DNA of 64,000 nt. Origin: a virus. The notes below the pieces were generated by a model. It made no database searches. It saw only the letters and a program-made list of their open reading frames with translations, and was not told the origin of the DNA. The position numbers were made by a program, and so were the translations under genes. Below are positions 1,330 through 63,509 of this stretch, one piece after another. The stretch's first letter is position 1. Every line of letters begins with the position of its first letter. The stretch is from positions 353,621 through 417,620 of IMG/VR virus record IMGVR_UViG_3300034072_000926. One strand, given 5' to 3'.

Positions 1330-1357
1330 CCTTTAGCAGAATGTGGTTAGACGTCAA
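1330..1357 (-). promoter_or_regulatory. Promoter for the 1-1323 block
   Basis: -35 TTGACG, 16-bp spacer, extended -10 TGC-TAAAGG. Leader ends AGGTAGGAT-ATG. Confidence 0.75.
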
Positions 1358-1363
1358 CCAGTT

Positions 1364-1780
1364 TTATGCCTCGGTCTTGAACTGCGAATGGCGCTGCACA
1401 TCAGTGTAGGCCCAGGTGCGGGGAGGGATGCCGCCGTTCTCAGCGACCATGCCGGCGATCCAGGGGTGGACCAGACCGTTCATCCGACAACGGAGATACA
1501 TGAAGGGGAAGTATTCATCCCCGATGTTGACCTCGCGGGGATAGAAAGCACGGAGGGCCTGGGCAGCACCATAGTAGGTCTGCGCGATGTAGTGCATCCG
1601 GTGGTTAGCGCCGTGGACGACCTTCTCGCCGTCCTCATTCTCGTGAGGGAGATCGACCATGGAGTTCAGCGCATCAATGGCCTTCCAGACCAGATCCTCG
1701 AAGACCCGGTGCGAAGCCTGGCTATCGTCGAAGATCTTGATCTGTGCGTTGGTCGCGGGGTAGTTTCCGATCTTGGCCAT
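1364..1780 (-). CDS. Hypothetical protein (138 aa)
   Basis: ATG at 1780 after AGGAGACAGCAA. Soluble mixed alpha/beta protein rich in His, Tyr and Trp (ANHRMHYIAQTYYGAA; WIAGMVAENGGIPPRTWAY). No signal peptide or membrane segment. Transcribed alone from 1807-1834. Function unknown. Confidence 0.85.
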   Translation of the reverse strand: MAKIGNYPATNAQIKIFDDSQASHRVFEDLVWKAIDALNSMVDLPHENEDGEKVVHGANHRMHYIAQTYYGAAQALRAFYPREVNIGDEYFPFMYLRCRMNGLVHPWIAGMVAENGGIPPRTWAYTDVQRHSQFKTEA

Positions 1781-1786
1781 TTGCTG

Positions 1787-1825
1787 TCTCCTGTTCCGTT
1801 ATCGCTGTAATAACAGAACAGGAGA
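1787..1825 (-). repeat. Inverted repeat enclosing a promoter -10
   Basis: Arms 1787-1802 and 1810-1825 pair over 16 bp with one mismatch around a 7-nt loop. The downstream arm covers the leader and Shine-Dalgarno sequence (GAACAGGAGA). The upstream arm lies in the -35/-10 spacer and extends across the -10. Confidence 0.85.
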
Positions 1826-1834
1826 GCAAATCAA
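1807..1834 (-). promoter_or_regulatory. Promoter for 1364-1780
   Basis: -35 TTGATT, extended -10 TGT-TATTAC; embedded in the inverted repeat at 1787-1825. Confidence 0.8.
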
Positions 1835-2343
1835 CCAGAAATTGAAGAAAAACGCCCTGATTCGATGTCATTGAAAAGATTTTCAATGATCTGTTTGGCC
1901 GAAGTCAAATCGAGTGGTTGGATCGTTTGCACTTTTGCCGGAATGAGGCTCCGTGCAATGTTTAGCTGATTTCCGATATAGAGACCAACGATAAGCGAAT
2001 CGCCGACTTTCTCTTGTTTGGTAATGATAGCAGGCGTAGAAGCAACCTGCAAATCCATTTCCCATCCGAGGTATTCTTGTTTGAAGCTCGTTGAGGTAAC
2101 ATTGACGAGATTGTTCACGTCAGACAGACCCCGCTCGCCGCCTATTTTGGGAGACTCGAAAGGCGTCCGAGGGTTGAGAGGATCGTTGGGTCCATAAACG
2201 AGTGTGAGATTTTCGCCGTCACTATCGAGTGAAACCCGAACTGAGTTATATCGATTTCGAACATTCTTGTTGAAGAACGTTGTCTCAATTCGAGTCTTCA
2301 ACTCATCAAGGAAACCGATCTTCACCGACAAAACTTCAAACAT
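1831..2343 (-). CDS. Hypothetical protein (170 aa)
   Basis: ATG at 2343 after GAGGTAGGAT. N-terminal helix (FLDELKTRIETTF), then a beta-rich body with many aliphatic residues (DSLIVGLYIGNQLNIA). Transcribed alone from the 2378-2406 promoter. No family recognised. Confidence 0.85.
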   Translation of the reverse strand: MFEVLSVKIGFLDELKTRIETTFFNKNVRNRYNSVRVSLDSDGENLTLVYGPNDPLNPRTPFESPKIGGERGLSDVNNLVNVTSTSFKQEYLGWEMDLQVASTPAIITKQEKVGDSLIVGLYIGNQLNIARSLIPAKVQTIQPLDLTSAKQIIENLFNDIESGRFSSISG

Positions 2344-2377
2344 ATCCTACCTCGTTAGTGTTTGTAATAATACAATT

Positions 2378-2406
2378 TAGATAACGCTAAATTTTCACAA
2401 TGTCAA
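2378..2406 (-). promoter_or_regulatory. Promoter for 1831-2343
   Basis: -35 TTGACA, 17-bp spacer, -10 TATCTA; a variant without the TGN extension, in an AT-rich stretch. Confidence 0.65.
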
Positions 2407-2425
2407 CCGACATTAGGAGCGAATC

Positions 2426-2725
2426 TCACCTACCCGGAAGATACCTCAGGATCCACTTGGGATAGCCCTCAGGCGTCATAATGATGTCGGGAATTGCCAC
2501 GGCATCATTGCCAGTTTCGACCCAACCGTTACCGAGACAGTGGTCACAGATCGACCGCTTGCTTCGCATACTGATCAGACATATCTCGCGGTTCCACTGC
2601 CCGTGCCCCTTGCATGTTGGACACTTTGCGTCGAGCGTCGCACCACGCGCCGCAAGTGGAATACAGGTGAACGCATGGGGATCGTCGACCCCAGTAGTGA
2701 TGTGAACTTTCGACGGGTGACTCAA
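2426..2725 (-). CDS. Zinc-finger protein with CxxCxGxG repeats (99 aa)
   Basis: TTG start at 2725 after GAGGAAACAAA, overlapping the upstream stop as TTGA. It carries CPTCKGHG and, about 27 residues later, CDHCLGNG. This pair resembles the DnaJ-type cysteine-rich zinc centre and should bind one Zn(II). No J domain is present. Role unknown. Confidence 0.75.
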   Translation of the reverse strand: MSHPSKVHITTGVDDPHAFTCIPLAARGATLDAKCPTCKGHGQWNREICLISMRSKRSICDHCLGNGWVETGNDAVAIPDIIMTPEGYPKWILRYLPGR

Positions 2726-3108
2726 TTTGTTTCCTCTTCGATAAATTCCTGCCAGAGCTCGCCGGTCCACTCATAGACGCCAGCAAGTGGTCCCTTTGGA
2801 ATCGTCAGCGTGGCACCGCGGAACATTGCTCCCTGCGACCGAACCACCAGAAACGCCCATGAATGATCCGTTACCCTTACATGCTTGAGATGTTCAGGCA
2901 TAGTGATGACGGTGCGGCCACAGTCGAACCCCAGACCCTGTTCGGGACCGATAGTGCGAGCCGGTATACGGGGCGGCGGGGGAGGTGGCGGGGGAGGAAT
3001 GTATGGCGACCGCAGCCAAATGGGACGGTATTCAGGCGAGTCGGGATGATCCGCCGAACCGTTCGTCCATCGTGGATAGTTCCAGAAATCGAGGGGTTCG
3101 GGGGTCAT
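2722..3108 (-). CDS. Hypothetical protein with a nonaproline run (128 aa)
   Basis: Starts ATGA-coupled to the 3105-3380 gene. Residues about 38-46 are nine consecutive prolines, preceded by a Tyr/Trp/Pro-rich N-terminus. A beta-rich C-terminal domain follows (SWAFLVVRSQGAMFRGATLTI). Polyproline tracts usually need EF-P for translation and act as spacers or SH3-type ligands. Function unknown. Confidence 0.75.
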   Translation of the reverse strand: MTPEPLDFWNYPRWTNGSADHPDSPEYRPIWLRSPYIPPPPPPPPPRIPARTIGPEQGLGFDCGRTVITMPEHLKHVRVTDHSWAFLVVRSQGAMFRGATLTIPKGPLAGVYEWTGELWQEFIEEETN

Positions 3109-3380
3109 TGCAGTTCAATGCCCAATTCGATCATCAGCGCATCCAATTCGGATTCGCCACCGATATAGAAGCCCGTCATGTTGCAGCCCAGGTCAGCCCA
3201 AACATTCACCTTGTCTGCGCTAATACGGAGCCCGTAGCCGCCATCGGTCATTGAAGACCGAACACCTTTGTATTCCCAGGAATCAACGCTGGGACTGGGC
3301 TTCTCAGCAAGGGAGCCTTCCCGCTTGATAAAGCGATGGATAGCTTCGACCTTTGCTGCAATGCCTGCGTCGGGAACCAT
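3105..3380 (-). CDS. Hypothetical protein (91 aa)
   Basis: ATG at 3380 after the standard leader AGGAGATCGAAC. Alpha/beta protein with a Gly/Tyr-rich centre (MTDGGYGLRISADKVNVWADLG). First of three coupled genes (3105, 2722, 2426) from one promoter. Unknown function. Confidence 0.85.
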   Translation of the reverse strand: MVPDAGIAAKVEAIHRFIKREGSLAEKPSPSVDSWEYKGVRSSMTDGGYGLRISADKVNVWADLGCNMTGFYIGGESELDALMIELGIELQ

Positions 3381-3411
3381 GTTCGATCTCCTGTTTGTGC
3401 CTATATGTTCA

Positions 3412-3438
3412 CAATAAAGGAAATAGGTGGAAAGTCAA
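3412..3438 (-). promoter_or_regulatory. Promoter for 2426-3380
   Basis: -35 TTGACT, 15-bp spacer, -10 TTATTG; the same variant spacing occurs at 8285-8311. Confidence 0.6.
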
Positions 3439-3443
3439 CACCT

Positions 3444-3662
3444 TTATTCAGTTTCTCCGAGGGCCCATTTGCTGTAAGACATGCCGCGAGCGCGGCGCAT
3501 ACGAGCAAGCTTGATGTCGGCTTCGGTCGGACCACGCGCAATTCGAGCAGCTTCGACCGCGTCCTGATGCTTCTGCAGAGCAGCAATTGCGCCATCTACG
3601 TCGCCGGTCATGATCGCATAATCCATTGCGCGAGAAATGGGGTTCCGAGTCCTACGTGCCAT
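3444..3662 (-). CDS. Small basic helical protein (72 aa)
   Basis: ATG at 3662 after AGGAGTTAACAA. Arg-rich at both ends (MARRTRNPISRAMDYA; LARMRRARGMSYSKWA) with a helical middle. Such composition fits nucleic-acid or nucleoprotein binding, but no motif is diagnostic. Confidence 0.8.
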   Translation of the reverse strand: MARRTRNPISRAMDYAIMTGDVDGAIAALQKHQDAVEAARIARGPTEADIKLARMRRARGMSYSKWALGETE

Positions 3663-3688
3663 TTGTTAACTCCTGCTGTTGTGTCTCC

Positions 3689-3716
3689 ACTTTAGCAGAA
3701 ACTGGAGAGGAGTCAA
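3689..3716 (-). promoter_or_regulatory. Promoter for 3444-3662
   Basis: -35 TTGACT, extended -10 TGC-TAAAGT, 16-bp spacing. Confidence 0.75.
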
Positions 3717-3739
3717 CACCTATTCTCCATACATCCATA

Positions 3740-4138
3740 TTATACCGCGTAGTCGGGATCCAGAGTGCAGAGATCGTGGCCGAGGTCGCGAACATAGGAA
3801 TCATTCCGATTCGCGCTGTTGATCAGCCGGGCGCAAGTCGTGCAATAATACCGCTGGGTGGAATGGTTATACCAATACGCACCAGGGGCTTGACACGCCT
3901 CACGATTGCAGTTCTTCCCCTTCTCGCCCTTGCCTTCGCCGTGGGGCTTGTCGGTCTGCAGATTGTCAATATATTCGGCCGACATATAGACGCCTTCGGG
4001 CGAAGTATATCCCTGCGTCTTTTTTGGTTCAGGTTCGCGACCGAGCCGAACATCAGGGTAGATGAATTTGGCCTTGCGATTGAGACGAGCAGCGCGCATC
4101 TGGTTGAAGGTCTTGGGCATCTTGCGAAGCTTGGCCAT
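3740..4138 (-). CDS. Zinc-finger-like protein (132 aa)
   Basis: Start placed at ATG 4138, after CAGGAGATCGT, rather than an in-frame upstream ATG. A basic N-terminus (MAKLRKMPKTFNQMRAARLNRKA) is followed by a C-terminal cysteine cluster: CNREACQAPG, then YYCTTCARLIN. This spacing fits a treble-clef or ribbon zinc site. Function unknown. Confidence 0.75.
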   Translation of the reverse strand: MAKLRKMPKTFNQMRAARLNRKAKFIYPDVRLGREPEPKKTQGYTSPEGVYMSAEYIDNLQTDKPHGEGKGEKGKNCNREACQAPGAYWYNHSTQRYYCTTCARLINSANRNDSYVRDLGHDLCTLDPDYAV

Positions 4139-4167
4139 ACGATCTCCTGTTGTTTCCTGTTGTCTTA

Positions 4168-4195
4168 CGTTTAACAGGTGTGACCCTGCTGTCAA
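4168..4195 (-). promoter_or_regulatory. Promoter for 3740-4138
   Basis: -35 TTGACA, extended -10 TGT-TAAACG. Confidence 0.75.
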
Positions 4196-4201
4196 CCAGT
4201 A

Positions 4202-4369
4202 TTAGATACGGCTGATAACCAGTTTTGCACCCGGAGGGGCGACGCTCATTTGCTTATGGATAGGACGACCCATCGCGAAATCAGTCGAGTTGTAGCGATA
4301 ATCCCAAGTCCCCCAACGATGCACGTAGGTGACCTTGTAGCCGAACAGCCTGAGAATCTTACGAAACAT
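4202..4369 (-). CDS. Small basic hypothetical protein (55 aa)
   Basis: ATG at 4369 after AAAGGAGATTTT. Sequence begins MFRKILRLFGYKVTYVHRW; basic and aromatic, ending in VISRI. It has its own promoter on the right and lies head-to-head with the plus-strand pair. Unknown function. Confidence 0.75.
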   Translation of the reverse strand: MFRKILRLFGYKVTYVHRWGTWDYRYNSTDFAMGRPIHKQMSVAPPGAKLVISRI

Positions 4370-4387
4370 AAAATCTCCTTTCCAGTT

Positions 4388-4415
4388 TTGATAACACAGG
4401 TGAGATTATAATCAA
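4388..4415 (-). promoter_or_regulatory. Promoter for 4202-4369
   Basis: -35 TTGATT, extended -10 TGT-TATCAA. Confidence 0.75.
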
Positions 4416-4459
4416 CCACATTATTGACTAGAGTAGAATGGAGGTTTTAGCAAAGATAT

Positions 4460-4846
4460 ATGAGTGATTCAAATGACCAAGCCCTAATCAAAGTCGCAAT
4501 AGAACTGCGGCAAATTGAGAATGCCATTCAGGTGGCCGGATTAGTCAAGAACATCCAGGCAAGGATAAAATCGTGTGTTGACCATATTAGGAACGGTCAT
4601 GGCAATACACCGGCCGACAATAGGGACCCTAAGAAAGCCCTCACCGATATTGTGCTATCCGACAACTGCGCGGTGCCGATGAAACACTACGTGGGCTTCC
4701 TACGTGGTTTACAAACTGATTTTGCTGAGGTGGACGAGTTTCTCGAGAAGTCGAAGGCGCGACAGCTAGAGTTGCAAAAGCTCGTAGATCTCTATACAGC
4801 AGGTCAAGATATCGTTGCTGCGAAGCTGAAAGGGCTTGACGAGTGA
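4460..4846 (+). CDS. Hypothetical helical protein, plus strand (128 aa)
   Basis: ATG at 4460 with only a weak ribosome site (AAAGATAT). Almost entirely helical, with coiled-coil-like ends (ALIKVAIELRQIENAIQ; FLEKSKARQLELQKLVDLY). One of few plus-strand genes; it overlaps the next gene by GTGA. A TTGACT at 4432-4437 may be its -35, but no clear -10 follows. Function unknown. Confidence 0.8.
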   Translation: MSDSNDQALIKVAIELRQIENAIQVAGLVKNIQARIKSCVDHIRNGHGNTPADNRDPKKALTDIVLSDNCAVPMKHYVGFLRGLQTDFAEVDEFLEKSKARQLELQKLVDLYTAGQDIVAAKLKGLDE

Positions 4847-5055
4847 ACTGGATCTATCGTGCAAATCGTTGGTATGATGACCTCGATGATACACATCCGA
4901 ATCTGCGTTTTCTCTTGTTCTTCATCCCCGCAGGCATTCTGCTAGGGATGATAACCCAATCCTATAGCATGACACTTACCTGGATTGGACTGACAGGTTT
5001 CGGTATTGGTTCAATCCTTCGTATCCTGTATTTCTACCGTCCTCGGAAGTCATAA
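4843..5055 (+). CDS. Two-pass membrane protein (70 aa)
   Basis: GTG start overlapping the previous stop. Two hydrophobic helices (about 23-42 and 45-63) follow an aromatic, acidic N-terminus; the C-terminus is basic (YFYRPRKS). Probably inner-membrane and co-expressed with the helical protein before it. Followed directly by a terminator. Confidence 0.8.
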   Translation: MNWIYRANRWYDDLDDTHPNLRFLLFFIPAGILLGMITQSYSMTLTWIGLTGFGIGSILRILYFYRPRKS

Positions 5056-5058
5056 GGA

Positions 5059-5088
5059 AACCGGGCCTAAGCCCGGTTCCCCTTTTTC
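5059..5088 (+). terminator. Rho-independent terminator
   Basis: Stem AACCGGGC/GCCCGGTT with loop CTAA, followed by CCCCTTTTT. Ends the plus-strand pair, facing the convergent gene at 5090. Confidence 0.85.
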
Positions 5089-5089
5089 C

Positions 5090-5410
5090 TTAGCGTTCCG
5101 AAACGCTGCCGCCGGCGGCCTGGGGCTTGCCCGGGACATTGATCTGCTGTTCGCAGGGGTTGAGGCGCAGCCAGCCGTGCTTGATGGGTTCGACCTTGAA
5201 GAAGCGCAGGTCACCGAGCGTTTCGGCGGACAGCGACACGCGCTTGCCGGGAATAGCCTGGCTCTTGTTGCGCAGGTCGACCAGGTCACGACCGTTCACG
5301 CGGTTCGTGGGGCGGATTTCGATCACACCGTCGACAGTGCGGAGGCGGATCTTGGTCATGCCGGTCATCAGTTCCGAAGCGGCCTTGTTGAAGTTTACAA
5401 CCTTGTTCAT
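5090..5410 (-). CDS. Hypothetical protein, paralogue of 25845-26174 (106 aa)
   Basis: ATG at 5410 after AGGAGATCGAAA. Begins NKVVNFNKAASEL and contains KHGWLRLNP. The gene at 25845 has YKTVNFNSATTSE and KYGWFTLAR at matching places, so the two are paralogues. Looks like a small beta-rich domain with conserved basic patches. Function unknown. Confidence 0.85.
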   Translation of the reverse strand: MNKVVNFNKAASELMTGMTKIRLRTVDGVIEIRPTNRVNGRDLVDLRNKSQAIPGKRVSLSAETLGDLRFFKVEPIKHGWLRLNPCEQQINVPGKPQAAGGSVSER

Positions 5411-5442
5411 TTTCGATCTCCTGTTTGCGTTTCCGATAAAAC

Positions 5443-5470
5443 AGTGATAACAGAAACTGGAAACCGATCA
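5443..5470 (-). promoter_or_regulatory. Promoter for 5090-5410
   Basis: -35 TTGATC, extended -10 TGT-TATCAC. Confidence 0.75.
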
Positions 5471-6219: not shown

Positions 6220-6252
6220 AAACAGTCTCCACTTTGTTGTTCTGATAAACAG

Positions 6253-6280
6253 ACAATAGCAGAAACTGGATCCTAGTCAA
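6253..6280 (-). promoter_or_regulatory. Promoter for 5998-6219
   Basis: -35 TTGACT, extended -10 TGC-TATTGT. Confidence 0.75.
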
Positions 6281-9180: not shown

Positions 9181-9468
9181 TTAATCCTCCCGATGATACT
9201 TCCGGGTGAGGGCAATTGCAGCATCCAGATCGAGAACCTTTCCGACTTCCCAGCCCTCGATCGTGCCCTTGGAGAGGACGACCTTCCGGTCAGGGGTAAA
9301 GTCGATATGGATGACCGGAGCGGTCATGTTGTAAATTTCAACATGACGGGCAATGCTGCCCTTGTCGAAATAGCTGCGGAGCATGAAGCGCATCGCTGCC
9401 GGGACAGTCTTGAACGAGCGATCCGAATAATCGCCGTAGGGGCTATTGGGTGCGGTCAGAATCTGCAT
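9181..9468 (-). CDS. Hypothetical protein with structured mRNA leader (95 aa)
   Basis: ATG at 9468 after GAGGAGATCGAAAC. Alpha/beta protein (SYFDKGSIARHVEIYNM; VIHIDFTPDRKVVLSKG). Its mRNA should carry a leader of roughly 130 nt closed by a 24-bp stem (see 9486-9599). No other gene here has such a leader. It also has its own terminator. Function unknown. Confidence 0.85.
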   Translation of the reverse strand: MQILTAPNSPYGDYSDRSFKTVPAAMRFMLRSYFDKGSIARHVEIYNMTAPVIHIDFTPDRKVVLSKGTIEGWEVGKVLDLDAAIALTRKYHRED

Positions 9469-9485
9469 GTTTCGATCTCCTCTTT

Positions 9486-9599
9486 ACAGCGCATAATTGA
9501 CTACCGAGAACCACGTGGACCCTAACCGAACGCATTGTCCAGTTCGTCTGCTTTACTCCGGACTCTAACCGGGCGTCTCGGTAGTCAACTATGCGCTGT
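9486..9599 (-). promoter_or_regulatory. Structured 5' leader with a 24-bp closing stem
   Basis: Arms 9486-9509 and 9576-9599 pair over 24 bp with a single G-U. They enclose smaller hairpins (CCGG...CCGG; CGAAC...GTTCG). Predicted transcription starts at about the outer end of the stem, and the stem ends 3 nt before GAGGAGATC. May be an RNase III site, a 5'-protecting structure or a ligand-binding leader. Confidence 0.75.
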
Positions 9600-9609
9600 C
9601 TACTCACCT

Positions 9610-13755: not shown

Positions 13756-13783
13756 TTGATAACAGGAAACAGGTGATTGTCAA
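13756..13783 (-). promoter_or_regulatory. Promoter for 12157-13730
   Basis: -35 TTGACA, extended -10 TGT-TATCAA. Confidence 0.75.
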
Positions 13784-16793: not shown

Positions 16794-17564
16794 TTAATGG
16801 GCTTTTAACTTAAGGGCAACTTTTGATTGCACAATAATATTGCGCCAGCCCATCGAAACCTTCCAATCCTTGCTGAGGATCTTTTCGATCTCCTCGAAGG
16901 TGTAGAGTTCCTTCTCTTTCGCGACAATCATCATTGCCCGCGATTCCTGATTGATAACCTCAGGAATATGGCTGCGCTTGTTCTTAACGTAACCGCGCCG
17001 GTTGAGGAACTTCTCGCGCCATTCCTCGGCTGCATCCCAGTCCTTTTGGAACTTGTGCTTATCGGTTGAGGTTATGACCAATCGGACAGCCTTTTTACCC
17101 GACTTAACATCCTGATGACCGAATTGCCATCCGTGCTGTTTGGCGAGTTCCGTGAATGCTGCTAAATCGGCTTTATTCTGTTCCTTGAGGGATTTCTGCT
17201 GGTCTTTGAAGACATTAGCGTTCTGCAGAATATCGTCCTGGACCTTTTCGTCCCACCGCAGGAAGTCAGTCGTTTTGATCTTGCGTCCGTGAATGATCAC
17301 GTGATTTTGACCGGCGCCGTAAGAGCCGCTTTCGTATTTGTGCCAGACCAAAGGTTCGGAGATTGCGCGAAAGGTAACAAACTTCGCGTTGCTACCTTGA
17401 TTGCGCTTGAATTTTGCGGGGACGACGCGGATCACCATTTCGGTGAACTTGAAGCCGTTCCTCAGGAGGGCCTTTGCAATCCCTTGGAAGTTTTCGGTTT
17501 GACGTCCAAAATCGTGATGGAGGATCTCACCAACACTCAATACGCGCTCACCAAACTTTTCCAA
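16794..17564 (-). CDS. Hypothetical protein (256 aa)
   Basis: TTG start at 17564 after the standard AGGAGATCGACC. Rich in Lys (KKAVRLVITSTDKHKFQKDW). The C-terminal third (YTFEEIEKILSKDWKVSMGWRN) looks like a helix-turn-helix. Nucleic-acid binding is plausible but unproven. Single-gene unit. Confidence 0.85.
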   Translation of the reverse strand: MEKFGERVLSVGEILHHDFGRQTENFQGIAKALLRNGFKFTEMVIRVVPAKFKRNQGSNAKFVTFRAISEPLVWHKYESGSYGAGQNHVIIHGRKIKTTDFLRWDEKVQDDILQNANVFKDQQKSLKEQNKADLAAFTELAKQHGWQFGHQDVKSGKKAVRLVITSTDKHKFQKDWDAAEEWREKFLNRRGYVKNKRSHIPEVINQESRAMMIVAKEKELYTFEEIEKILSKDWKVSMGWRNIIVQSKVALKLKAH

Positions 17565-17568
17565 GGTC

Positions 17569-17611
17569 GATCTCCTGTTGCTACCTAGTCACAGTAGCAG
17601 AACAGGAGATC
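17569..17611 (-). repeat. Inverted repeat spanning promoter and Shine-Dalgarno
   Basis: 17569-17584 and 17594-17611 pair as GATCTCCTGTT plus GCTAC, with a 2-nt bulge. One arm lies in the promoter spacer, the other is the leader GAACAGGAGATC. Confidence 0.85.
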
Positions 17612-19540: not shown

Positions 19541-19571
19541 AAAAAAGGGAAGTGTTTCCACTTCCCTTTTT
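19541..19571 (-). terminator. Strong rho-independent terminator
   Basis: 13-bp stem AAAAAGGGAAGTG/CACTTCCCTTTTT, GAAA tetraloop, then TTTTTTATT on the minus strand. Confidence 0.9.
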
Positions 19572-21065: not shown

Positions 21066-21103
21066 CTGCCTACTCACCTGTTTTAGCACAAGTAAGTAGG
21101 CAG
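21066..21103 (-). repeat. Inverted repeat around promoter with variant arms
   Basis: CTGCCTACTCAC (21066-21077) versus GTAAGTAGGCAG (21092-21103): 11 of 12 pair, although the sequence differs from the common CACCTGTTT arms. Confidence 0.8.
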
Positions 21104-23653: not shown

Positions 23654-23685
23654 CTTCGATCTCCTGCGCTGCATTTCGTGTCACC

Positions 23686-23713
23686 ACTTTAGCAGAACAG
23701 GAGACTGAGTCAA
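23686..23713 (-). promoter_or_regulatory. Promoter for 22978-23653
   Basis: -35 TTGACT, extended -10 TGC-TAAAGT. Confidence 0.75.
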
Positions 23714-24306: not shown

Positions 24307-24354
24307 GATCTCCTGTTTGCTTCTGTTGTTCTCAACATAGCAGAACAGGAGATC
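24307..24354 (-). repeat. Inverted repeat spanning promoter and leader
   Basis: GATCTCCTGTT (24307-24317) pairs exactly with AACAGGAGATC (24344-24354). The first lies in the transcribed leader next to the Shine-Dalgarno, the second in the promoter spacer. Confidence 0.85.
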
Positions 24355-27396: not shown

Positions 27397-27422
27397 CCTA
27401 TGTGCCTATTTTAGCACATAGG
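27397..27422 (-). repeat. Inverted repeat around promoter with variant arms
   Basis: CCTATGTGC (27397-27405) and GCACATAGG (27414-27422) pair exactly across the -10. Confidence 0.8.
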
Positions 27423-31379: not shown

Positions 31380-31407
31380 GTTTTAGCACTCTGGAAAACA
31401 AAGTCAA
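31380..31407 (-). promoter_or_regulatory. Promoter for 30974-31348
   Basis: -35 TTGACT, extended -10 TGC-TAAAAC; the -35 is also the 3' arm of a terminator. Confidence 0.8.
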
Positions 31408-31427
31408 CCAGGTTTTTGCTGGTTGAC
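31392..31427 (-). terminator. Terminator whose arm doubles as a -35 box
   Basis: Minus strand: GTCAACCAG, 7-nt loop, CTGGTTGAC, then TTTGTTTT. The TTGAC of the right arm is the -35 of the next promoter. Confidence 0.75.
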
Positions 31428-32642: not shown

Positions 32643-32674
32643 ACTCGATCTCCTTTGCTGCATTTCGTGTCACC

Positions 32675-32702
32675 ACTTTAGCAGAACAGGAGATCAAGTC
32701 AA
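32675..32702 (-). promoter_or_regulatory. Promoter for 31442-32642
   Basis: -35 TTGACT, extended -10 TGC-TAAAGT; AGGAGATC/GATCTCCT arms. Confidence 0.8.
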
Positions 32703-41439: not shown

Positions 41440-41478
41440 TCTCCTGTTGTTATGTGCCTATGATAGCAGAACAGGAGA
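41440..41478 (-). repeat. Inverted repeat spanning promoter and leader
   Basis: TCTCCTGTT (41440-41448) pairs with AACAGGAGA (41470-41478). Confidence 0.8.
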
Positions 41479-43460: not shown

Positions 43461-44666
43461 TTAAAAGGAAAATGCACAACCCAACTGCTCGAGGACTTCT
43501 TCGGCTTCATCGAAGTCCATGTCGAACTCGTCGACCAGAAGGAACAACGTGGGTTGCTTGCCCTGCAATTGTGCGCGGATCTTGTCCAGCTTGGTCGTCG
43601 GAGCAGCTACCTTAGGGGCCGGGGCAACCAAGCTCTTACGGGCTTCTACGATGCGCTGGACAGCTTCATCGCTAACAAAGGCACCGTGGACGCGCCGCAG
43701 GTTGCTGCCCTCCATGAGCAGCATGTCACCCTTGCCTAGGAGGTTCTCTGCACCTTCTTCGCCGATAATCGTCCGGCTGTCGAAATTGCTTGCAACTCGG
43801 AAGCTAATCCGAGTGGGGAGGTTCGCCTTGAGAACACCCGTCACAACGTCCACAGACGGCCGCTGAGTAGCCATAATAAGATGGATGCCCGCTGCTCGCG
43901 CTTTCTGTGCAATGCGCTGCACAAGCCCTTCAAGGGCTTTGCCGGCCATCGAGATCAGATCAGCAAATTCATCAATGACCACAACAATGTAGGGCAGCTT
44001 GTTGGCGTGCTTTTCATTGTAGTTCGCAATGTTGCGAACCTTTGCATCGCTGAGCAGTCGGTAACGATCCTCCATGGTCTGGACAATCTCACCCAGTGCC
44101 TCAATGGCTTCCTTGGGATCGGTAATCGTCGGGCGCAGCAAATGCGGGATGCCATCATATATGGACAGTTCCAGCATCTTCGGATCGATAAAGAGGAACT
44201 TGCATTCCTCTGCCGAAAACTTGGAAAGCAGGCTGAGGATCATGCTGTTCACGCCCACGCTCTTGCCCGATCCGGTGGTGCCCGCGACGAGCAAGTGGGG
44301 CATGGTAGCGAGGTCGCTCACGACGGCCTCCCCAGTGATTGCACGACCGAGGATGATGGGCAATGCCGCGTTGCTCTTCTGGAACTCCGGGGCAACCAAG
44401 AGGTCATCGAAGGAGATCATCTGGCGGTTCTCATTGGGAACCTCGACCGACATTGTGTTGCTTCCCTGCGTGGGAAGGATACGAATGCCCTGCACGCCAA
44501 TGCAGCGCGCAATATCGTTGGTCAGACCGATGACCTTATTGGAACGGACACCGCGCTCCAATTCGATTTCGTAGGTGGAAACCAGCGGGCCGCTCTTGAC
44601 CGAAACGACTTCGACTTTGAAGCCGAAATCTTCGAAAGCTTGTTCCAGTGCAACGGTGCGGTTCAT
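43461..44666 (-). CDS. FtsK/SpoIIIE-type DNA translocase motor (401 aa)
   Basis: ATG after AGGAGATCGAAG. Residues 20-110 match the FtsK alpha domain (GPLVSTYEIELERGV). Walker A GTTGSGKS is at 129-136 and Walker B YIVVVIDEFADLIS near 230. IHLIMATQRPSVDVVTG, PTRISFRVASNFDSRTI and LLGKGDMLL complete the beta domain. No membrane domain and no gamma (KOPS-reading) domain; an acidic tail replaces it. Predicted hexameric double-stranded DNA pump, perhaps for moving or segregating phage DNA. Confidence 0.93.
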   Translation of the reverse strand: MNRTVALEQAFEDFGFKVEVVSVKSGPLVSTYEIELERGVRSNKVIGLTNDIARCIGVQGIRILPTQGSNTMSVEVPNENRQMISFDDLLVAPEFQKSNAALPIILGRAITGEAVVSDLATMPHLLVAGTTGSGKSVGVNSMILSLLSKFSAEECKFLFIDPKMLELSIYDGIPHLLRPTITDPKEAIEALGEIVQTMEDRYRLLSDAKVRNIANYNEKHANKLPYIVVVIDEFADLISMAGKALEGLVQRIAQKARAAGIHLIMATQRPSVDVVTGVLKANLPTRISFRVASNFDSRTIIGEEGAENLLGKGDMLLMEGSNLRRVHGAFVSDEAVQRIVEARKSLVAPAPKVAAPTTKLDKIRAQLQGKQPTLFLLVDEFDMDFDEAEEVLEQLGCAFSF

Positions 44667-46235: not shown

Positions 46236-46408
46236 CGGTCGCTCAGTTTCCCGATCGGACTCGTCATACCACAGAGGCGGAGCCATCCTGCATGATTGCG
46301 TCGACGTTCTGCATCCTGGGCTTCCAGCTGCTCGCGCTTTTTCTCTGCCCAGTAGCGATCGTTCTCCGTGAGGTCCAGCCCACGCCGGCCGTCATTGTGG
46401 TAGGTCAT
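46232..46408 (-). CDS. Small basic protein (58 aa)
   Basis: ATG 46408, ATGA-coupled after GGAGGCCCGCAG. Charged helix (YWAEKKREQLEAQDAERRR). Between NadE and the oxygenase. Unknown. Confidence 0.7.
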   Translation of the reverse strand: MTYHNDGRRGLDLTENDRYWAEKKREQLEAQDAERRRNHAGWLRLCGMTSPIGKLSDR

Positions 46409-47412
46409 TCTGCGGGCCTCCATGCTGGATTGTCCCAACCATCTTTAACACCACTTTGGAGAATGTCAAGATGGACTGCGGGCGACCGGCCCAGATATTT
46501 GTGGGCATTGTAGCGGTGCATCCGCTCCAGATTGTCGCGATATTCGTCATATTGCGCACGATCCTCAGCGGTGCCATAATCGGAGACCATGCCGTCCACA
46601 AATGCAGCGCACAGGTCGCTCCACTTGGTATGCGTGAAGATCTCCACGAAATCGTAGGGCGCACCGAAGACGACCTCATCCGTGGTCGCGTCGAACATGT
46701 CGCCTGTTGGTGCGCGAGTGAGAACCTCTTCCGGAACCCCGAGGAAACGACCGACCTCGTAGACTTCCGATTTGAACAGGTCGCTGATCAGCTGGAGATC
46801 GACCATGCCGTCAGAAGCTTTGCCGAAATAGCCGAGGTAGCCACCCTCGCTGAGATTGGTCGTGCCGATGACCAGACCGGGCATTCCCTGTGCTGCGAGA
46901 ACGCTGGTCACATAATAGTAGACTGGAGTCCGAGCGTAGCTGGTGATCTGACCACGACACCAGTCCGCTTTGTCCTCATTGGGTGCACCGAGACCGCTGA
47001 ACAGTTCCACGTCCTGTATGATCTGCTTTGTGATCAGACTCATGTTGATTTCGTAGAACTTAACACCGAACGTCCGGCAGACCTGCTCCGCGAGATTAGC
47101 TGCGTCGTCCTGTCCCGTTACGCCGTGATTCTCACGATCTGGCAGGGTGATGGCAACAATACGTTCGATCGGACTGTCCTCTGCCCGGCTGGCCATTTCG
47201 ACCAGACCCAGGACCACCGCACTGTCGATGCCACCGGAGATCGCAACCACTGCGCTCTTGAGGCCGGCTTGTCGGTAATAGGCGTTGAGCAGCTTGATCT
47301 TTTCCTCGACCACCGTCTCAACATTGAACCCACGTTCCTGTCGGACATGAGCGAGAGCCTGTCGGAGCGGCGCACTGAGGACCATGTTGGTCGAGTGGTT
47401 GCGGATTTCCAT
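46405..47412 (-). CDS. nadE: Ammonia-dependent NAD synthetase
   Basis: 335 residues. ATP-pyrophosphatase P-loop SGGIDSA at 59-65; GTTNLSEGGYLGYFGKASDG and LFKSEVYEVGRFLGVP match the substrate and ATP regions of NadE. No N-terminal glutaminase domain, so NH3 is the likely donor. Converts nicotinate adenine dinucleotide to NAD at the expense of ATP. With the adenylyltransferase at 32.7 kb it would complete NaMN to NAD. ATG after AAGGGGCAACCAGC. Confidence 0.95.
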   Translation of the reverse strand: MEIRNHSTNMVLSAPLRQALAHVRQERGFNVETVVEEKIKLLNAYYRQAGLKSAVVAISGGIDSAVVLGLVEMASRAEDSPIERIVAITLPDRENHGVTGQDDAANLAEQVCRTFGVKFYEINMSLITKQIIQDVELFSGLGAPNEDKADWCRGQITSYARTPVYYYVTSVLAAQGMPGLVIGTTNLSEGGYLGYFGKASDGMVDLQLISDLFKSEVYEVGRFLGVPEEVLTRAPTGDMFDATTDEVVFGAPYDFVEIFTHTKWSDLCAAFVDGMVSDYGTAEDRAQYDEYRDNLERMHRYNAHKYLGRSPAVHLDILQSGVKDGWDNPAWRPAE

Positions 47413-47605: not shown

Positions 47606-47649
47606 CTCCTGTTTGCTTCTGTTGTTTTCACACTAGCAGCAAACAGGAG
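47606..47649 (-). repeat. Perfect 11-bp inverted repeat spanning promoter and leader
   Basis: CTCCTGTTTGC (47606-47616) and GCAAACAGGAG (47639-47649). Confidence 0.85.
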
Positions 47650-54817: not shown

Positions 54818-54862
54818 CTCCTTGTTGTCTTGCAACCTGGTATATAGGTTTTCAACAAGGAG
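54818..54862 (-). repeat. 10-bp inverted repeat with gene-specific arms
   Basis: CTCCTTGTTG (54818-54827) and CAACAAGGAG (54853-54862). One is the leader with Shine-Dalgarno, the other the promoter spacer. Confidence 0.85.
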
Positions 54863-54866
54863 TCAA
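54839..54866 (-). promoter_or_regulatory. Promoter for 53283-54811
   Basis: -35 TTGACT, -10 region TATATACC at 14-16 bp. Confidence 0.65.
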
Positions 54867-58418: not shown

Positions 58419-60048
58419 TCTCTTCCTCCTCAATCAACACGCCTGCTCGAATCCTCAAAATGTTGATGCAGTTCTCAAGACCATACGCCTCAATGAATGC
58501 ACCGAACCGAGGACCATCACTGGATCCCAACAGGCACTCGTATAGCGCCTGGAACCAAGAACGCAAAGGTTCAAATCCATGTGCCTTGCCAACCTCATAT
58601 ACCTGATACTGGTAATGATCAGCCGTCATGTTGGGCAGCATTGCCTCAAGGCGAGTAGCAAGGTCGATGAACGCATCAGCTTCCTGAACCGTTGGTTCCC
58701 GACATTCACGATCATACAGACCACGCTCAGTCGCGTAGCGGATGACCTTGTTGGCCTTGATGAGAACCTGCAACCGCTGCTGGAAGTCAAGTGGTCGAGA
58801 CTGTTCGAGGTAGCTGACCAGCGTTTCAGCGTCCGAAGCCTGGCTGACCACGCTCAAGTTGAGCAATAGGCTATACGCCACATCGACGATCGGTTCGGCG
58901 ATCCCATTCTCAGTGAAGAACCACGCAGCATCGTTCGGAGTGAGCGGTCGCCCAAGCATCTTCAGATAGTCGTCTTCCATCTTGGGAACAAGATCGATAT
59001 GAATCGGCTTAGATGCAGTCGGCTTCTGGAACAGGAAGAGCATGAGCGATTCCTTAGAGCCATAGGACAACCAGTCCTCAATCGAAAAGCCATTGCCCTT
59101 CGACTTGCTGATCTTCTTGCCCTCTGCGTCGAGGAAGAGTTCATAGGTCATGCCAACTGGAGGTGTCCCGCCGATTGCACGACAGATCTTCCGAGAAGCC
59201 GTAACCGAATCAATGAGATCCTTGCCGGACATTTCGTAGTCCACATCAAAGTGAGCCCAGCGCATTGCCCAGTCCACCTTCCACTGAAGCTTGGAGCGAC
59301 CATTACCCGTTGGGCTCGTCACCGCCGTGACATCATCCCTTCCGGTTTCCCACGTGAGCTGGCGCCCGGGGATCACCATTTCGCGCGAGACACCCTCATT
59401 GAGGAGTCGTCCCTCAAAAAGCGGCATGAATGGACTGTAGGTTGCGCGGCGCTCCTCACCCAGTGTGGGCAGCATCACGCCCTGAATGGCATCGTAATTG
59501 TCCCAGATGCGATCCAGCATTTCGTTGAACTTGCCCGACCGGTAATAGTCAGAGGAGCTCACGAAGGATACGCGACTCCGATCCGGCGAGCTGCCGACCA
59601 CCGAGCCATCGTAGGTCTTGAGAATGTCGTCAACAAACCGCACCAGACGATCGTTGTTAGCGCCCGCAAAGCTGCCTGCATACTGGTCGGCATCGTTGGC
59701 CACGCACTCGTCCATTTCCGGATAAGGATTTGGAACCGTGCTCAGCGGCTTGCCCAGATAATCCTGCATCCACGCGGGCATCCCATCAGGAACCTTCCGC
59801 ATCGCGTCGTAGTCGTCGCTGAACATGATAAGTCGAGTCTGATACGCCTTGTCAGTCAGCGTATCAAATGCCTTCATAACCCAAAGGGTGCGAACAACTT
59901 CTGCGAACGTGCCGATATGCGGCGCACCCGAGGGACCATAGCCGGTCTCGAACGTCACGACATCACCAGGCTTCTTCCCCTTCTTCTCAATATGCTTGAG
60001 AAGTGAACGGGCCTCTTGGAAGGGCCAGCTCTTTGCCTGAGTAGTCAC
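58411..60048 (-). CDS. lysK: Class I lysyl-tRNA synthetase
   Basis: GTG 60048 after AAGGAGGCATAC, giving 545 residues, the usual length of LysRS-I. GYGPSGAPHIGTFAEV (36-51) is the class I HIGH motif in its LysRS-I form; KKISKSKGNG near 311 is KMSKS. RQLTWETGRDDVTAV and WKVDWAMRWAHFDVDYEMSG match LysRS-I core segments. Charges tRNA-Lys with lysine. Class I enzymes occur in archaea, alphaproteobacteria and spirochaetes, which hints at the host. Rare in phages. Confidence 0.93.
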   Translation of the reverse strand: MTTQAKSWPFQEARSLLKHIEKKGKKPGDVVTFETGYGPSGAPHIGTFAEVVRTLWVMKAFDTLTDKAYQTRLIMFSDDYDAMRKVPDGMPAWMQDYLGKPLSTVPNPYPEMDECVANDADQYAGSFAGANNDRLVRFVDDILKTYDGSVVGSSPDRSRVSFVSSSDYYRSGKFNEMLDRIWDNYDAIQGVMLPTLGEERRATYSPFMPLFEGRLLNEGVSREMVIPGRQLTWETGRDDVTAVTSPTGNGRSKLQWKVDWAMRWAHFDVDYEMSGKDLIDSVTASRKICRAIGGTPPVGMTYELFLDAEGKKISKSKGNGFSIEDWLSYGSKESLMLFLFQKPTASKPIHIDLVPKMEDDYLKMLGRPLTPNDAAWFFTENGIAEPIVDVAYSLLLNLSVVSQASDAETLVSYLEQSRPLDFQQRLQVLIKANKVIRYATERGLYDRECREPTVQEADAFIDLATRLEAMLPNMTADHYQYQVYEVGKAHGFEPLRSWFQALYECLLGSSDGPRFGAFIEAYGLENCINILRIRAGVLIEEEEIV

Positions 60049-60077
60049 GTATGCCTCCTTGAATACTATCAAGCTGC

Positions 60078-60105
60078 AACGTATAGACAATCACACAGGT
60101 GTCAA
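60078..60105 (-). promoter_or_regulatory. Promoter of the LysRS unit
   Basis: -35 TTGACA, -10 region TATACG/TACGTT at 14-16 bp. Confidence 0.55.
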
Positions 60106-60120
60106 CCTATTTAGGAGGAC

Positions 60121-60573
60121 TCAAAGATATCGGCTATTCACACCACGGAATTTGAGACCTCGCATCCTACGAACTTTCACAGTCTTCTTGAAAGCCATCA
60201 TCTCTTTAACCGTATAGTTGATCTCAGGCCATTTGGCCATACGTCCATAGATATACTCACTTCGACGAGCAATGTGATTACGGTAATATACCTCGGTGCG
60301 ACTGAGATTATTAACATTCTTCTTGAAAATAAGAATGTTGTTATGACGGCGCTTCATAAACGCCGTATATTCTGTATCAGTTGGATTGAGCTGTCGTAGG
60401 CGTTGATTGCGATCACGAACAGTCGTTGCATGATAACGCTTCATCGACAGATAGCCTGCCATTTCTCCATTTAGACTGGAGATCTTAGCCCGTGCATGTT
60501 CCATCCCAGCTTCCTCATAGAGCTTGATGAAGAACTCAGGGTTGCTGTAGAGATGTTCAATCGTAGGTTTCAT
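60121..60573 (-). CDS. Very basic hypothetical protein (150 aa)
   Basis: TAATG-coupled after CAAGGTCGCG. Arg/Lys/Tyr-rich helical protein (MKRYHATTVRDRNQRLRQL; MAFKKTVKVRRMRGLKFRG). Likely binds nucleic acid. Unknown. Confidence 0.8.
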   Translation of the reverse strand: MKPTIEHLYSNPEFFIKLYEEAGMEHARAKISSLNGEMAGYLSMKRYHATTVRDRNQRLRQLNPTDTEYTAFMKRRHNNILIFKKNVNNLSRTEVYYRNHIARRSEYIYGRMAKWPEINYTVKEMMAFKKTVKVRRMRGLKFRGVNSRYL

Positions 60574-60869
60574 TACGCGACCTTGGTGAGAATGCCGTAG
60601 ATGTTCTTTATTGTCGTCCAGCCATTCACATGACCATGGTTATTTGAGATCTGAAACTGATCCCCGCGCACCGCAGAGACAAGATGAAGGTATTGATTAC
60701 CCCTGACCTTGCATAGCACAATGTCACCCTTTTGCGGGGGAGACGAGACAGGTGCAACGGTGCAAAGCTGTCCCGAGGAGATCCTTCCAGTCATGGAGTT
60801 ACCACGGGGACGAAACTCAATAGTCTCGCCAGCTTCTAGCTTCTTGATATATTGGGTAGCCCAGCTCAT
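60573..60869 (-). CDS. S24/LexA-type peptidase-like domain protein (98 aa)
   Basis: EFRPRGNSMTGRISSGQLCTVAPV carries the GNSM nucleophile box of S24 peptidases; KGDIVLCKVRGNQYLHLVSAVRG follows the fold. The usual catalytic Lys position reads His, and no DNA-binding domain is present. May be an inactive or minimal signal-peptidase/LexA fold. Predicted leaderless. Confidence 0.7.
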   Translation of the reverse strand: MSWATQYIKKLEAGETIEFRPRGNSMTGRISSGQLCTVAPVSSPPQKGDIVLCKVRGNQYLHLVSAVRGDQFQISNNHGHVNGWTTIKNIYGILTKVA

Positions 60870-60874
60870 AAGCC

Positions 60875-60904
60875 ACGTTACAGAGTGGCATTACCTGTAG
60901 TCAA
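60875..60904 (-). promoter_or_regulatory. Promoter of the S24-like gene, leaderless class
   Basis: -35 TTGACT, 18-bp spacer, -10 TAACGT preceded by TG, 5 nt to ATG; GCCAC/GTGGC arms. Confidence 0.55.
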
Positions 60905-60954
60905 GATGTTCCTGAAGGGCATTACGAATGCCACGCCGTATGACATCCTTTTTA

Positions 60955-60984
60955 TTGCAGTTATCGAATCTATTACTGTATAAA
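60955..60984 (+). promoter_or_regulatory. Plus-strand promoter of the tail-fibre-like gene
   Basis: -35 TTGCAG, 18-bp spacer, -10 TATAAA; differs from the minus-strand consensus and may be a late promoter. A GGCATT/AATGCC hairpin lies at about 60917-60932. Confidence 0.5.
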
Positions 60985-61016
60985 AAGGGTTAATAAAAAC
61001 AGAACTGGAGAATGGT

Positions 61017-62480
61017 ATGCTGGCGCCAAAACAGCTAGACACGACCAAAGACCTTACAATGAAAGGCGGCAGAATCTATCTAGTCGATGGCGACGCGTCA
61101 TCTGTAAGCCTAGGGTTCCGTGACCATCCCAATACTGGCTTTTACCGATCGAGTGATGGCTCCATGGGCTTTGCACAGAACGGCGTTAGTCGTCTGCATA
61201 TCAATCCCTTGGGTGTTATCTCAGGTGCGTTTTCCGGCTCTATAACAGGGTCTGCTGATACAGCAGTCAAGCTATCAAGTTCAAGGACTTTCTCACTCAC
61301 AGGGGATGCAACAGCATCTGTGACTAGCGATTTGGCAACTGGTGTGAGTCTAGCCGTTACCTTGAAAGATATCGTTGGTTTAACACCTGGAACTTATAAT
61401 TCCTTGACTGTTGATCAGAAAGGTCGCATTACTAGCGGCACTGTCATCAGTTTCACAAAGTCCCTTGTTGGACTTGGTAATGCAGATAACACCTCAGATG
61501 CCCTAAAACCAATCAGCAATGCAACTCAGGCTGCACTGAACCTCAAGCTCAACAGTAGCGCATTCGTGCCTGTTGGCAATACGAGCGAAGTCATCTATAA
61601 CAATGCCGGTGCTTGGGGATCGGCATCTAATTTGATGGTAGAGGGTGGCTATCTCAAACTCGCTGCCAGTCTTCCTACAATTGCAACCAACGGTGTCATA
61701 CTAGGTGCTAAGGATCATGCGGGTCGAACAATGCCTGCATGGGTCGACAGCAACGGTCTTGATATAACACCCCAGCCGCATATTGGTAGGAATTGTGTAA
61801 GTCAATGGACTCCACAATTCGGCGCTACAACACTCAGCATATGGGGCATGTCAACCGCAACTGCAACTGGCACGGCAACTGCAAGAAGTCCAGCAAACAC
61901 AAGTCTCCTTGCAAGCTTGCGTCGCACTGGCTTTGTGAGTGCAGGAACAAGCGGTAGCCTTTGTGGCTATCGTCAACCCACTGCCCAATGGTGGAGGGGT
62001 AATGTCGCGGGCGCTGGTGGCTTCCATTATATCCACACCTTCGGCATCTCAGATGCTTCCACGTTGAGCACGGCTAAGATGTTTGTGGGATTATCAGCTT
62101 CGACCGCGGCGCCCACCAACGTAGAGCCCAATACTCTAGTCAATAGTGTTGGACTTGGAAAGATGTCAACGTCCGCGAACCTCTGCATCATCACAAACGA
62201 TGCAACGACAGGCTTCACTCCAATTGATCTCGGAGTCAACTTCCCAGGGACCGTGGTAGGTGACATCTATACCTTGACCTTATTTGCTCCACCCAACGGT
62301 AGCTTTATCGGATATAAGGTCGAGAGAGTGACAACAGGTATGAGTGTATCGGGCACACTTACCACAGACCTACCGGTTAACACCACATTCCTCACCTTAC
62401 AGTCATGGCGAACAAATAGCACCATTTTGGCCGCCGCTGGACTGGACCTCATTAGTCTCTATATCGAAACTGATAATTGA
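61017..62480 (+). CDS. Tail fibre/structural protein (487 aa)
   Basis: ATG after ACTGGAGAATGGT. N-terminal GGRIYLVDGDA and HPNTGFYRSSDGSMGFAQNG form the phage fibre module common in tail-fibre and neck proteins. SSSRTFSLTGDATASVTSD and VGLGNADNTSDALKPISN are typical beta-repeat fibre segments. The C-terminal 250 residues are Thr/Ser/Asn-rich beta sheet, probably the receptor-binding or capping part. No chaperone gene seen. Only clear virion gene in the window. Confidence 0.85.
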   Translation: MLAPKQLDTTKDLTMKGGRIYLVDGDASSVSLGFRDHPNTGFYRSSDGSMGFAQNGVSRLHINPLGVISGAFSGSITGSADTAVKLSSSRTFSLTGDATASVTSDLATGVSLAVTLKDIVGLTPGTYNSLTVDQKGRITSGTVISFTKSLVGLGNADNTSDALKPISNATQAALNLKLNSSAFVPVGNTSEVIYNNAGAWGSASNLMVEGGYLKLAASLPTIATNGVILGAKDHAGRTMPAWVDSNGLDITPQPHIGRNCVSQWTPQFGATTLSIWGMSTATATGTATARSPANTSLLASLRRTGFVSAGTSGSLCGYRQPTAQWWRGNVAGAGGFHYIHTFGISDASTLSTAKMFVGLSASTAAPTNVEPNTLVNSVGLGKMSTSANLCIITNDATTGFTPIDLGVNFPGTVVGDIYTLTLFAPPNGSFIGYKVERVTTGMSVSGTLTTDLPVNTTFLTLQSWRTNSTILAAAGLDLISLYIETDN

Positions 62481-62517
62481 CTCACCGGCGTAAGCCAAAG
62501 CCTTCCCCCGAATACAG

Positions 62518-62555
62518 GTAAAGGGGACTCTTCCGGTATTGAAGAGTCCCCTAGT
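62518..62555. terminator. Bidirectional terminator between convergent genes
   Basis: 12-bp stem AGGGGACTCTTC/GAAGAGTCCCCT, 7-nt loop; TTTACC follows on the minus strand. Confidence 0.7.
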
Positions 62556-62599
62556 TCGGGCGGCTTATTGGATTGGCTGTGGGGTTGGATGCGCGGCAG

Positions 62600-62935
62600 T
62601 TAGCTGTTCTTTTTCGTCCACTTATCCAGATATTTCGTCAGTTCGGGACTGGCCTTACCCGTTCCGAAAACTCGATTTATTGCGAGTGCCTGTTGCAGAT
62701 CCTGAGCGTTCATCGGCTGCGCGAACGGCTTGTTCTGTGACAGCTTGCGGAAACAGGCGTTCAGTGCGCCCTGTTCGGTCGTGAAGTCGATGCCGTTGAG
62801 CCAGCTCTTGTCCGGCTTCTCGCACAGGAATTCGTAGGTGTCGTCATCGTGATGGATGAGGCAGATCTTCATCTGGGTCAGGAAATCTGCGAAACGAGGA
62901 TGGGTCAGGCTTTCAAGCTTCGTGAAGGACTTCAT
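62600..62935 (-). CDS. Hypothetical protein (111 aa)
   Basis: ATG after AAGGAGATACC. Helical with a beta hairpin (MKICLIHHDDDTYEFLCEK). Co-transcribed with 62945. Unknown. Confidence 0.8.
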   Translation of the reverse strand: MKSFTKLESLTHPRFADFLTQMKICLIHHDDDTYEFLCEKPDKSWLNGIDFTTEQGALNACFRKLSQNKPFAQPMNAQDLQQALAINRVFGTGKASPELTKYLDKWTKKNS

Positions 62936-62944
62936 GGTATCTCC

Positions 62945-63454
62945 TTAAAAGGTATTGCGGTCCTTGTCGAAGGTAACTTCGCGGACATTCATTTGGACGA
63001 GAGTGTGGGCGCTCTGCGGCAATTCCTGCGTGTCGAAGGACACGTTGATGTTATCACGGAAAAGGAATCCGGGGCCGTGGTGAAGGGTAACGAATACCGG
63101 CGTCGTAGCAAGGGCCTGACATTCCGTCATCGTTGCATATTCGTTCGGGCATTCGTAGAGGATGGCATCGACCGTCATCTTCTCCATGAAGTCCTGGCTA
63201 TTGTTCCGGACTTGAACGTCCATCGTGAACGCCGGATTGAACTGGCCGTTGTCACGTTGGATGTTGTCGATGGTGATGCTGTAGGAGGGGTCCAGACCAG
63301 TGACCGTATAGTCACTCTGCCAATCCTTGACCCACTGCACGGCGAGCCAGAGCCCCAAAGCGATCATGAACAAGCGGAAGAGTTTGAACTGAAACATCAG
63401 AGCGAAAATGGCACCGAAAATTACAAATCCGCTAATGCCTCCACTCTTCTGCAT
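62945..63454 (-). CDS. Membrane protein with periplasmic-type domain (169 aa)
   Basis: ATG after GGAGATCGAAC. Two hydrophobic stretches (GFVIFGAIFALMFQF; LFMIALGLWLAVQWV). A beta-sandwich-like domain follows, with FTMDVQVRNNSQDF and two cysteines (LYECPNEY; TECQAL). Resembles a FxLYD-type domain; that is uncertain. Confidence 0.8.
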   Translation of the reverse strand: MQKSGGISGFVIFGAIFALMFQFKLFRLFMIALGLWLAVQWVKDWQSDYTVTGLDPSYSITIDNIQRDNGQFNPAFTMDVQVRNNSQDFMEKMTVDAILYECPNEYATMTECQALATTPVFVTLHHGPGFLFRDNINVSFDTQELPQSAHTLVQMNVREVTFDKDRNTF

Positions 63455-63481
63455 GTTCGATCTCCTTGTTGCCTAATCACA

Positions 63482-63509
63482 CGGATAGCAGAAATAGGAG
63501 ACAAGTCAA
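63482..63509 (-). promoter_or_regulatory. Promoter for 62600-63454
   Basis: -35 TTGACT, extended -10 TGC-TATCCG. Confidence 0.75.

Follow-up and report, generated by a model that had tools for sequence, protein, structure and literature searches.

The 64,000-nucleotide stretch analysed here (the window) comprises bases 353621-417620 of a virus record of 465,259 bases (IMG/VR record IMGVR_UViG_3300034072_000926), and it raises the question of why promoters should be built into inverted repeats that also take in the leader of the gene they serve. A preliminary description of the sequence held that the upstream arm, present only in readthrough RNA, would fold over the ribosome site, and that each gene would thereby be translated only from its own promoter. 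The present analysis favours a narrower answer, to which a probability of roughly 60% is given: in a subset of promoters, the early promoter may double as the 5' arm of a hairpin which, according to the folding models, hides the Shine-Dalgarno sequence (SD) in readthrough RNA. This answer draws on computed results, namely the repeats, their co-variation promoter by promoter, the costs of opening the SD, and the turnover of arms at denV with SD locking kept.

According to this mechanism, an early sigma-70-type promoter would form the 5' arm of a hairpin existing only in transcripts that arrive from upstream. The left arm would lie in the spacer between the -35 and -10 boxes (in some relatives, in the -10 box and discriminator) and would thus precede the inferred start site; the leader would supply the right arm, which in the commonest form takes in the SD. 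Transcripts initiated at the gene's own promoter would lack the left arm and leave the SD open, while readthrough RNA would fold and hide it. With early genes closely packed on one strand and few terminators between them, each such gene would depend mainly on its own promoter for translation. The amount of readthrough and the reduction in translation are quantities that we infer, and the benefit would presumably lie in a separate dose and timing for each gene.

Among named phages, the portal and terminase of the record are nearest to those of Sinorhizobium phage Phosso and Agrobacterium phage Atu_ph07, and its portal matches the T4 portal model at 3e-104; the record is therefore assigned to a giant T4-related phage. 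Five giant phages were compared: that of the window's record (G000), G001 (462 kb, with an FtsK-like protein 81% identical), G002 (436 kb) and G003 (417 kb), both with portals at 80-82%, and the cultured Phosso. The dozens of minus-strand promoters reported earlier are indeed there, as the pattern TTGAC-N(11-15)-TGYTA has 45 matches in the window, 43 of them on the minus strand, and shuffled sequences give an expectation of 0.7. Over the whole record the pattern occurs 83 times in reverse and 15 times in forward orientation (2 and 6 for the reversed-pattern control), with its peak density at about 352-417 kb of the record. Some matches look intragenic, for example 30546 and 45716. G001, G002, G003 and Phosso are also rich in TTGAC-N14-TGYTA, and a search of viral_contigs for the exact promoter pattern returned none. 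AAACTGG usually precedes the TTGAC-N14-TGYTA promoters of the window; motifs of this type are conserved and abut the -35 box at most TTGAC boxes of the window and likewise in G001-G003, and in several G002 promoters the motif is itself complementary to the spacer.

All six inverted repeats cited in the preliminary description are present, with folds at z -4.4 to -8.7 against mononucleotide shuffles, and further ones accompany other promoters (Table 1). The repeat at 1787-1825, upstream of the ORF at 1364-1780, had been credited with one mismatch; there is a single non-Watson-Crick position, which is seen in the sequence to be a U.G wobble in RNA. This repeat (-35 TTGATT at 1829-1834) and that at 54818-54862 (-35 TTGAC at 54862-54866, -10 TATATA at 54841-54846) fall outside the TTGAC/TGYTA family, on account of the TTGATT and the plain TATATA, respectively.

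Table 1. Promoter family and inverted repeats of the window. In class B repeats the SD lies beyond the stem; opening costs are given for readthrough RNA, RNA with scrambled spacer and promoter-started RNA, in that order.
Feature	Promoter	Positions	Strand	Arms	SD	Fold	SD opening cost	Remarks
TTGAC-N14-TGYTA early-type promoter family		1334..63509	-					43 pattern matches, 39 with called start codon; shuffle-tested search
Inverted repeat		1787..1825	-	TCTCCTGTTCTGTTAT / ATAACGGAACAGGAGA	in right arm	-24.3 kcal/mol, z -8.7		
Inverted repeat	6280	6225..6268	-		within stem	-18.9 vs -12.4 with exchanged arms		
Inverted repeat	17618	17569..17611	-	GATCTCCTGTT / AACAGGAGATC	in right arm (SD of TTG-start ORF 16794-17564)	-24.4 kcal/mol, z -6.9		
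Class B repeat around -10	21107	21066..21103	-	CTGCCTACTTACTTGT / ACAGGTGAGTAGGCAG	outside stem, 6 nt downstream (about 21060)	-29.1 vs -14.3 exchanged		own arm ranks best of all
Inverted repeat	23713	23658..23706 (approximate limits)	-		in right arm		12.2; 3.4; 2.8	
Inverted repeat	24361	24307..24354	-	GATCTCCTGTT / AACAGGAGATC	in right arm	-25.9 kcal/mol, z -7.4	13.5; 4.8; 3.0	
Class B repeat	27435	27397..27422	-	CCTATGTGCT / GGCACATAGG (one wobble)	outside	-21.3 vs -11.7		own arm best of all arms
Inverted repeat	32702	32643..32699	-	ACTTGATCTCCTGTTCTGC / GCAGCAAAGGAGATCGAGT	in right arm		13.9; 4.6; 5.0	
Inverted repeat	41487	41440..41478	-	TCTCCTGTT / AACAGGAGA	in right arm	-13.2 kcal/mol, z -4.4		longer fold: own -20.1 vs exchanged -10.7
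Inverted repeat	47657	47606..47649	-	CTCCTGTTTGCTGCT / AGAAGCAAACAGGAG	in right arm	-22.5 kcal/mol, z -7.0	11.6; 6.3; 0.3	
Inverted repeat, unrelated arm sequence		54818..54862	-	CTCCTTGTTG / CAACAAGGAG		-16.5 kcal/mol, z -5.4		

The specificity of the pairing was assessed by joining every promoter core (spacer plus -10) to the leader of every other promoter and comparing the fold energies. Own against exchanged pairs give z of -7.7 in G000, -8.7 in G001, -5.8 in G002, -6.3 in G003 and -6.2 in Phosso (-6.1 and -8.1 in an earlier run on two genomes), single values being approximate because several settings for pattern, arm limits and scoring were explored and not preset, with promoters and gene starts called by simple rules and promoters within one genome not fully independent. 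Random positions put through the same test have a mean of about -1 and a standard deviation of about 1, the lowest of 84 draws being -3.6. Tests by pairs of segments place the excess mainly between core and leader; leader with leader and upstream with leader are null, upstream with core is weak (-3.0), and upstream with upstream reaches -4.6, perhaps through terminators. Leaders avoid pairing with the start of their own ORF. Promoterless gene starts no more than 25 nt from the previous gene, a restriction that keeps spurious ORFs out, give about 0 in 13 phages; at larger gaps the signal persists in several phages, probably owing to missed promoters. Other sigma-70 promoters of the five phages show a Stouffer value of -2.7, but with only 2-5 promoters per phage, and in E. 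coli intergenic starts range from -1.6 to 0.1, the promoter control there having few hits.

The same own-specific pairing is common to several T4-related phages, the early promoters of T4 giving z -9.4 (n=30), RB69 -8.3 and RB49 -5.8. Atu_ph07 (-3.7), FelixO1 (-3.4) and PA5oct (-2.9) carry a weak signal, KVP40 (-2.1) no clear one, and the late promoters of T4 as a group (n=17) none; a uniform promoter scan yielded too few promoters to score in G003 and SPO1. Thus, the arms co-vary promoter by promoter across related phages, as in the compensating change between CCTGTT/AACAGG at 13783 of G000 and CCTCTT/AAGAGG at 78797 of G001. The arms of orthologues in the giant phages are often quite different and their class is sometimes switched, which may reflect swapping of whole promoter modules or change in place. 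Within the window, 11 of 39 promoters have an own arm that falls in the top 10% when all left arms are ranked against the leader (3.9 expected). The statement that many promoters lie within an inverted repeat therefore holds in that own-matched stems exceed expectation, and is to be limited to a clear subset.

The relation of these stems to the SD is more divided. Any left arm pairs with the SD core to about the same extent, since many spacers resemble an anti-SD (CACCT/CTCCT); the pairing probability of the SD, which is not raised in own relative to exchanged pairs, was accordingly dropped as a test by itself, and the cost of opening the SD was used instead. The own-specific excess sits in the part of the leader that precedes the SD, and the SD is therefore costlier to open in a promoter's own readthrough RNA. 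In the folding models, the opening cost in own readthrough RNA exceeds that with exchanged arms (Stouffer 7.0 over the five giant phages, the effect being weak in G002 and G003 and weakest in G003), and promoter-started RNA has the lowest cost, at 1.5-1.9 kcal/mol in the giant phages. The costs are 4.4 for own, 3.3 for exchanged and 1.1 for promoter-started RNA in T4, and 3.7, 3.0 and 1.2 in RB69, so that G000, G001, Phosso, T4 and RB69 are the phages in which the cost is specifically raised. The comparison of readthrough with promoter-initiated RNA that the preliminary description had called for comes out, in these models and for many promoters, as it predicted.

The 37 strongest repeats divide into 18 whose stem takes in the SD (class A) and 19 that leave it outside (class B, found mainly in G002 and G003). 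The claim that the spacer is often complementary to the SD itself is upheld by the former and not by the latter; folding over the ribosome site likewise agrees with the raised opening costs and does not extend to class B or to the dyads of RB49, where own pairs have the lower cost (z -3.0) and the dyads, situated within the spacer or about the -10 box, avoid the SD. Many early promoters of RB49 (NC_005066) have palindromes that fill the spacer, for example TTGACA-GGGGATCGGTGATCCCC-TATACT, and the variants keep the symmetry. Translation of each gene from its own promoter, genome-wide, is accordingly too strong a claim, because only 11 of the 39 window promoters are clearly own-matched, and 19 of the 37 strongest repeats do not enclose the SD.

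The clearest case for SD hiding is the denV gene, where 30 distinct leaders, taken from T4-like contigs, were amenable to scoring. In 26 of the 30, which are related by descent and so do not represent 26 independent events, the predicted fold of readthrough RNA locks the SD by no less than 6 kcal/mol (0 in own transcripts), and the stems that lock it are mutually unrelated, the left arm in some being the -10 box and discriminator. The arms, whose conservation in relatives had been proposed as a check, thus turn over in sequence at denV with SD locking retained; at a second T4 gene (promoter 62797), relatives also keep SD-locking stems despite changed arms. The remaining four leaders, from phages of 345-378 kb, have an intrinsic terminator that encloses the -35 box and extends with its U tract into the -10 box. 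The fusion lies upstream of denV in L146, L148, L149 and L154, with the TTGAC -35 in the terminator stem (GGGTTGACTTCGGTCAGCCCTTTTTTG-TATAAT). The four records together contain 22 copies of the motif, that of L148 alone 13, and the reversed control gives 0.

For a large subset of promoters, and most strongly at denV, the results are best explained if readthrough RNA hides the SD. The class B repeats and the spacer dyads of RB49 go beyond it and need another or an added role. One alternative is that the hairpin acts in readthrough RNA mainly in some other way, by protecting or marking the upstream mRNA at its 3' end, by offering a cut site to a double-strand RNase, or by hindering ribosome standby. 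The left arm lies in the spacer or -10 box in every listed case and, in all classes, upstream of the start inferred from the position of the -10 box, so that the hairpin would be absent from promoter-started RNA throughout; a role of this kind would cover class A, class B and the RB49 dyads alike, including the half or so of the strong repeats that leave the SD outside. It has a counterpart in seg43 of Aeromonas phage 25, where a hairpin stands just upstream of the ribosome-binding site (RBS) and does not cover it (PMC2988022). Such a role has no need of the raised SD opening costs in G000, G001, Phosso, T4 and RB69, nor of SD locking kept at denV through a complete change of stem, and as the main function it is considered unlikely.

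A second alternative places the symmetry in the DNA, as operators of a phage regulator or as cruciform-prone promoter DNA, with complementarity to the SD a by-product. A palindrome, GGGGATC-N3-GATCCCC, recurs almost unchanged in the RB49 spacers, which are nearer to fixed than other arms; RB69 has recurring arms centred on the -10 box, CTGG/CCAG cores recur at several positions in G002 and G003, and scoring by Watson-Crick pairs only already yields strong signals. An operator would have a fixed half-site and spacing, which these repeats lack, because the arms differ widely between promoters and their centre shifts from -6 to +9, about 15 nt. Allowing G.U on the sense strand also raises the signal, whereas allowing the antisense equivalent lowers it (asymmetry 2.9 pooled over 11 phages, negative in G002), and this wobble bias gives moderate support to RNA over a DNA dyad. 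The bias does not separate the classes and is not specific to class A, and its use as proof of RNA for one class only was dropped. With SD costs and denV conservation left unexplained as well, a DNA-level origin appears improbable. Least credible are functionless palindromes from template switching at short repeats, which could leave non-coding DNA with repeats that are long, variable and nearly symmetric and would not account for their absence from leader-internal or upstream-by-leader segments and from promoterless starts, or for the SD locking kept at denV by unrelated stems in many phages.

The hairpins described here are also distinct from intrinsic terminators, which have a GC-rich hairpin and a U tract and likewise insulate from readthrough. 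In the folds examined, the stems lack the following U tract and lead into the SD/start region or mixed sequence; only the fused elements of the four 345-378 kb relatives, in which a terminator is joined to the promoter, have that structure. Terminator-like sites stand upstream of 33 of 216 promoters (51 of 600 in the control), and hairpin strength has no link with the absence of an upstream terminator. Two terminator-like hairpins of the window, at 19542-19571 and 31403-31427, lie directly upstream of or overlap promoters 19535 and 31407. It is conceivable, at slightly less than even odds, that a widespread design rule of T4-related phages is involved, whereby early promoters co-evolve with their leaders, many early genes would be translated only from their own start site, and a terminator around the -35 box would substitute where the hairpin is missing.

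In T4, genes e, soc, 49 and I-TevI have an RBS-sequestering hairpin in long early transcripts that is absent from transcripts of their own promoters, with about 100-fold repression reported for e (PMC3014915, PMC2988022). The promoters studied here resemble them in having the left arm at the own promoter, where it would lie upstream of the start so that only longer transcripts would form the hairpin, and the SD or AUG in the right arm, an arrangement that occurs in a subset and is lacking in class B and RB49. The T4 cases are single late or intron-borne genes silenced early, whereas here dozens of early sigma-70-type promoters in several phages are concerned; repression of e was measured, whereas these promoters are known from sequence and computed folds. 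Class B resembles seg43, a single case in which a very stable hairpin leaves the RBS uncovered (PMC2988022), in that the SD lies just outside the stem, yet class B recurs and co-varies. T4-type early promoters, of the same sigma-70 class, are described without repeats or hairpins in the portions available of two accounts (PMC2988021, PMC1524935), and own-matched repeats are found here in T4, RB69 and RB49. Word searches of the open literature gave no description of early-promoter repeats; older subscription literature was outside their scope. If SD hiding holds, the well-studied T4 carries a little-noticed layer of control, in which it also depends on the promoter sequence whether transcripts begun elsewhere are translatable. 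This would explain the separate doses of tightly packed early genes with few terminators, and would change annotation and the reuse of phage promoters and leaders in synthetic biology.

Apart from the repeats, the minus strand of the window at 9440-9605 encodes a leader RNA, downstream of promoter 9637, with a strong fold (24-bp closing stem, -61.6 kcal/mol, z -4.6) that stops just short of the SD and ATG. It has no Rfam match, and elsewhere in the compared sequences only its SD/start end recurs. Elsewhere in the window, an FtsK/SpoIIIE-like protein is encoded at 43461-44666 (minus strand) and an NAD synthetase-like protein at 46405-47412, also on the minus strand, the other genes being mostly without assignment.
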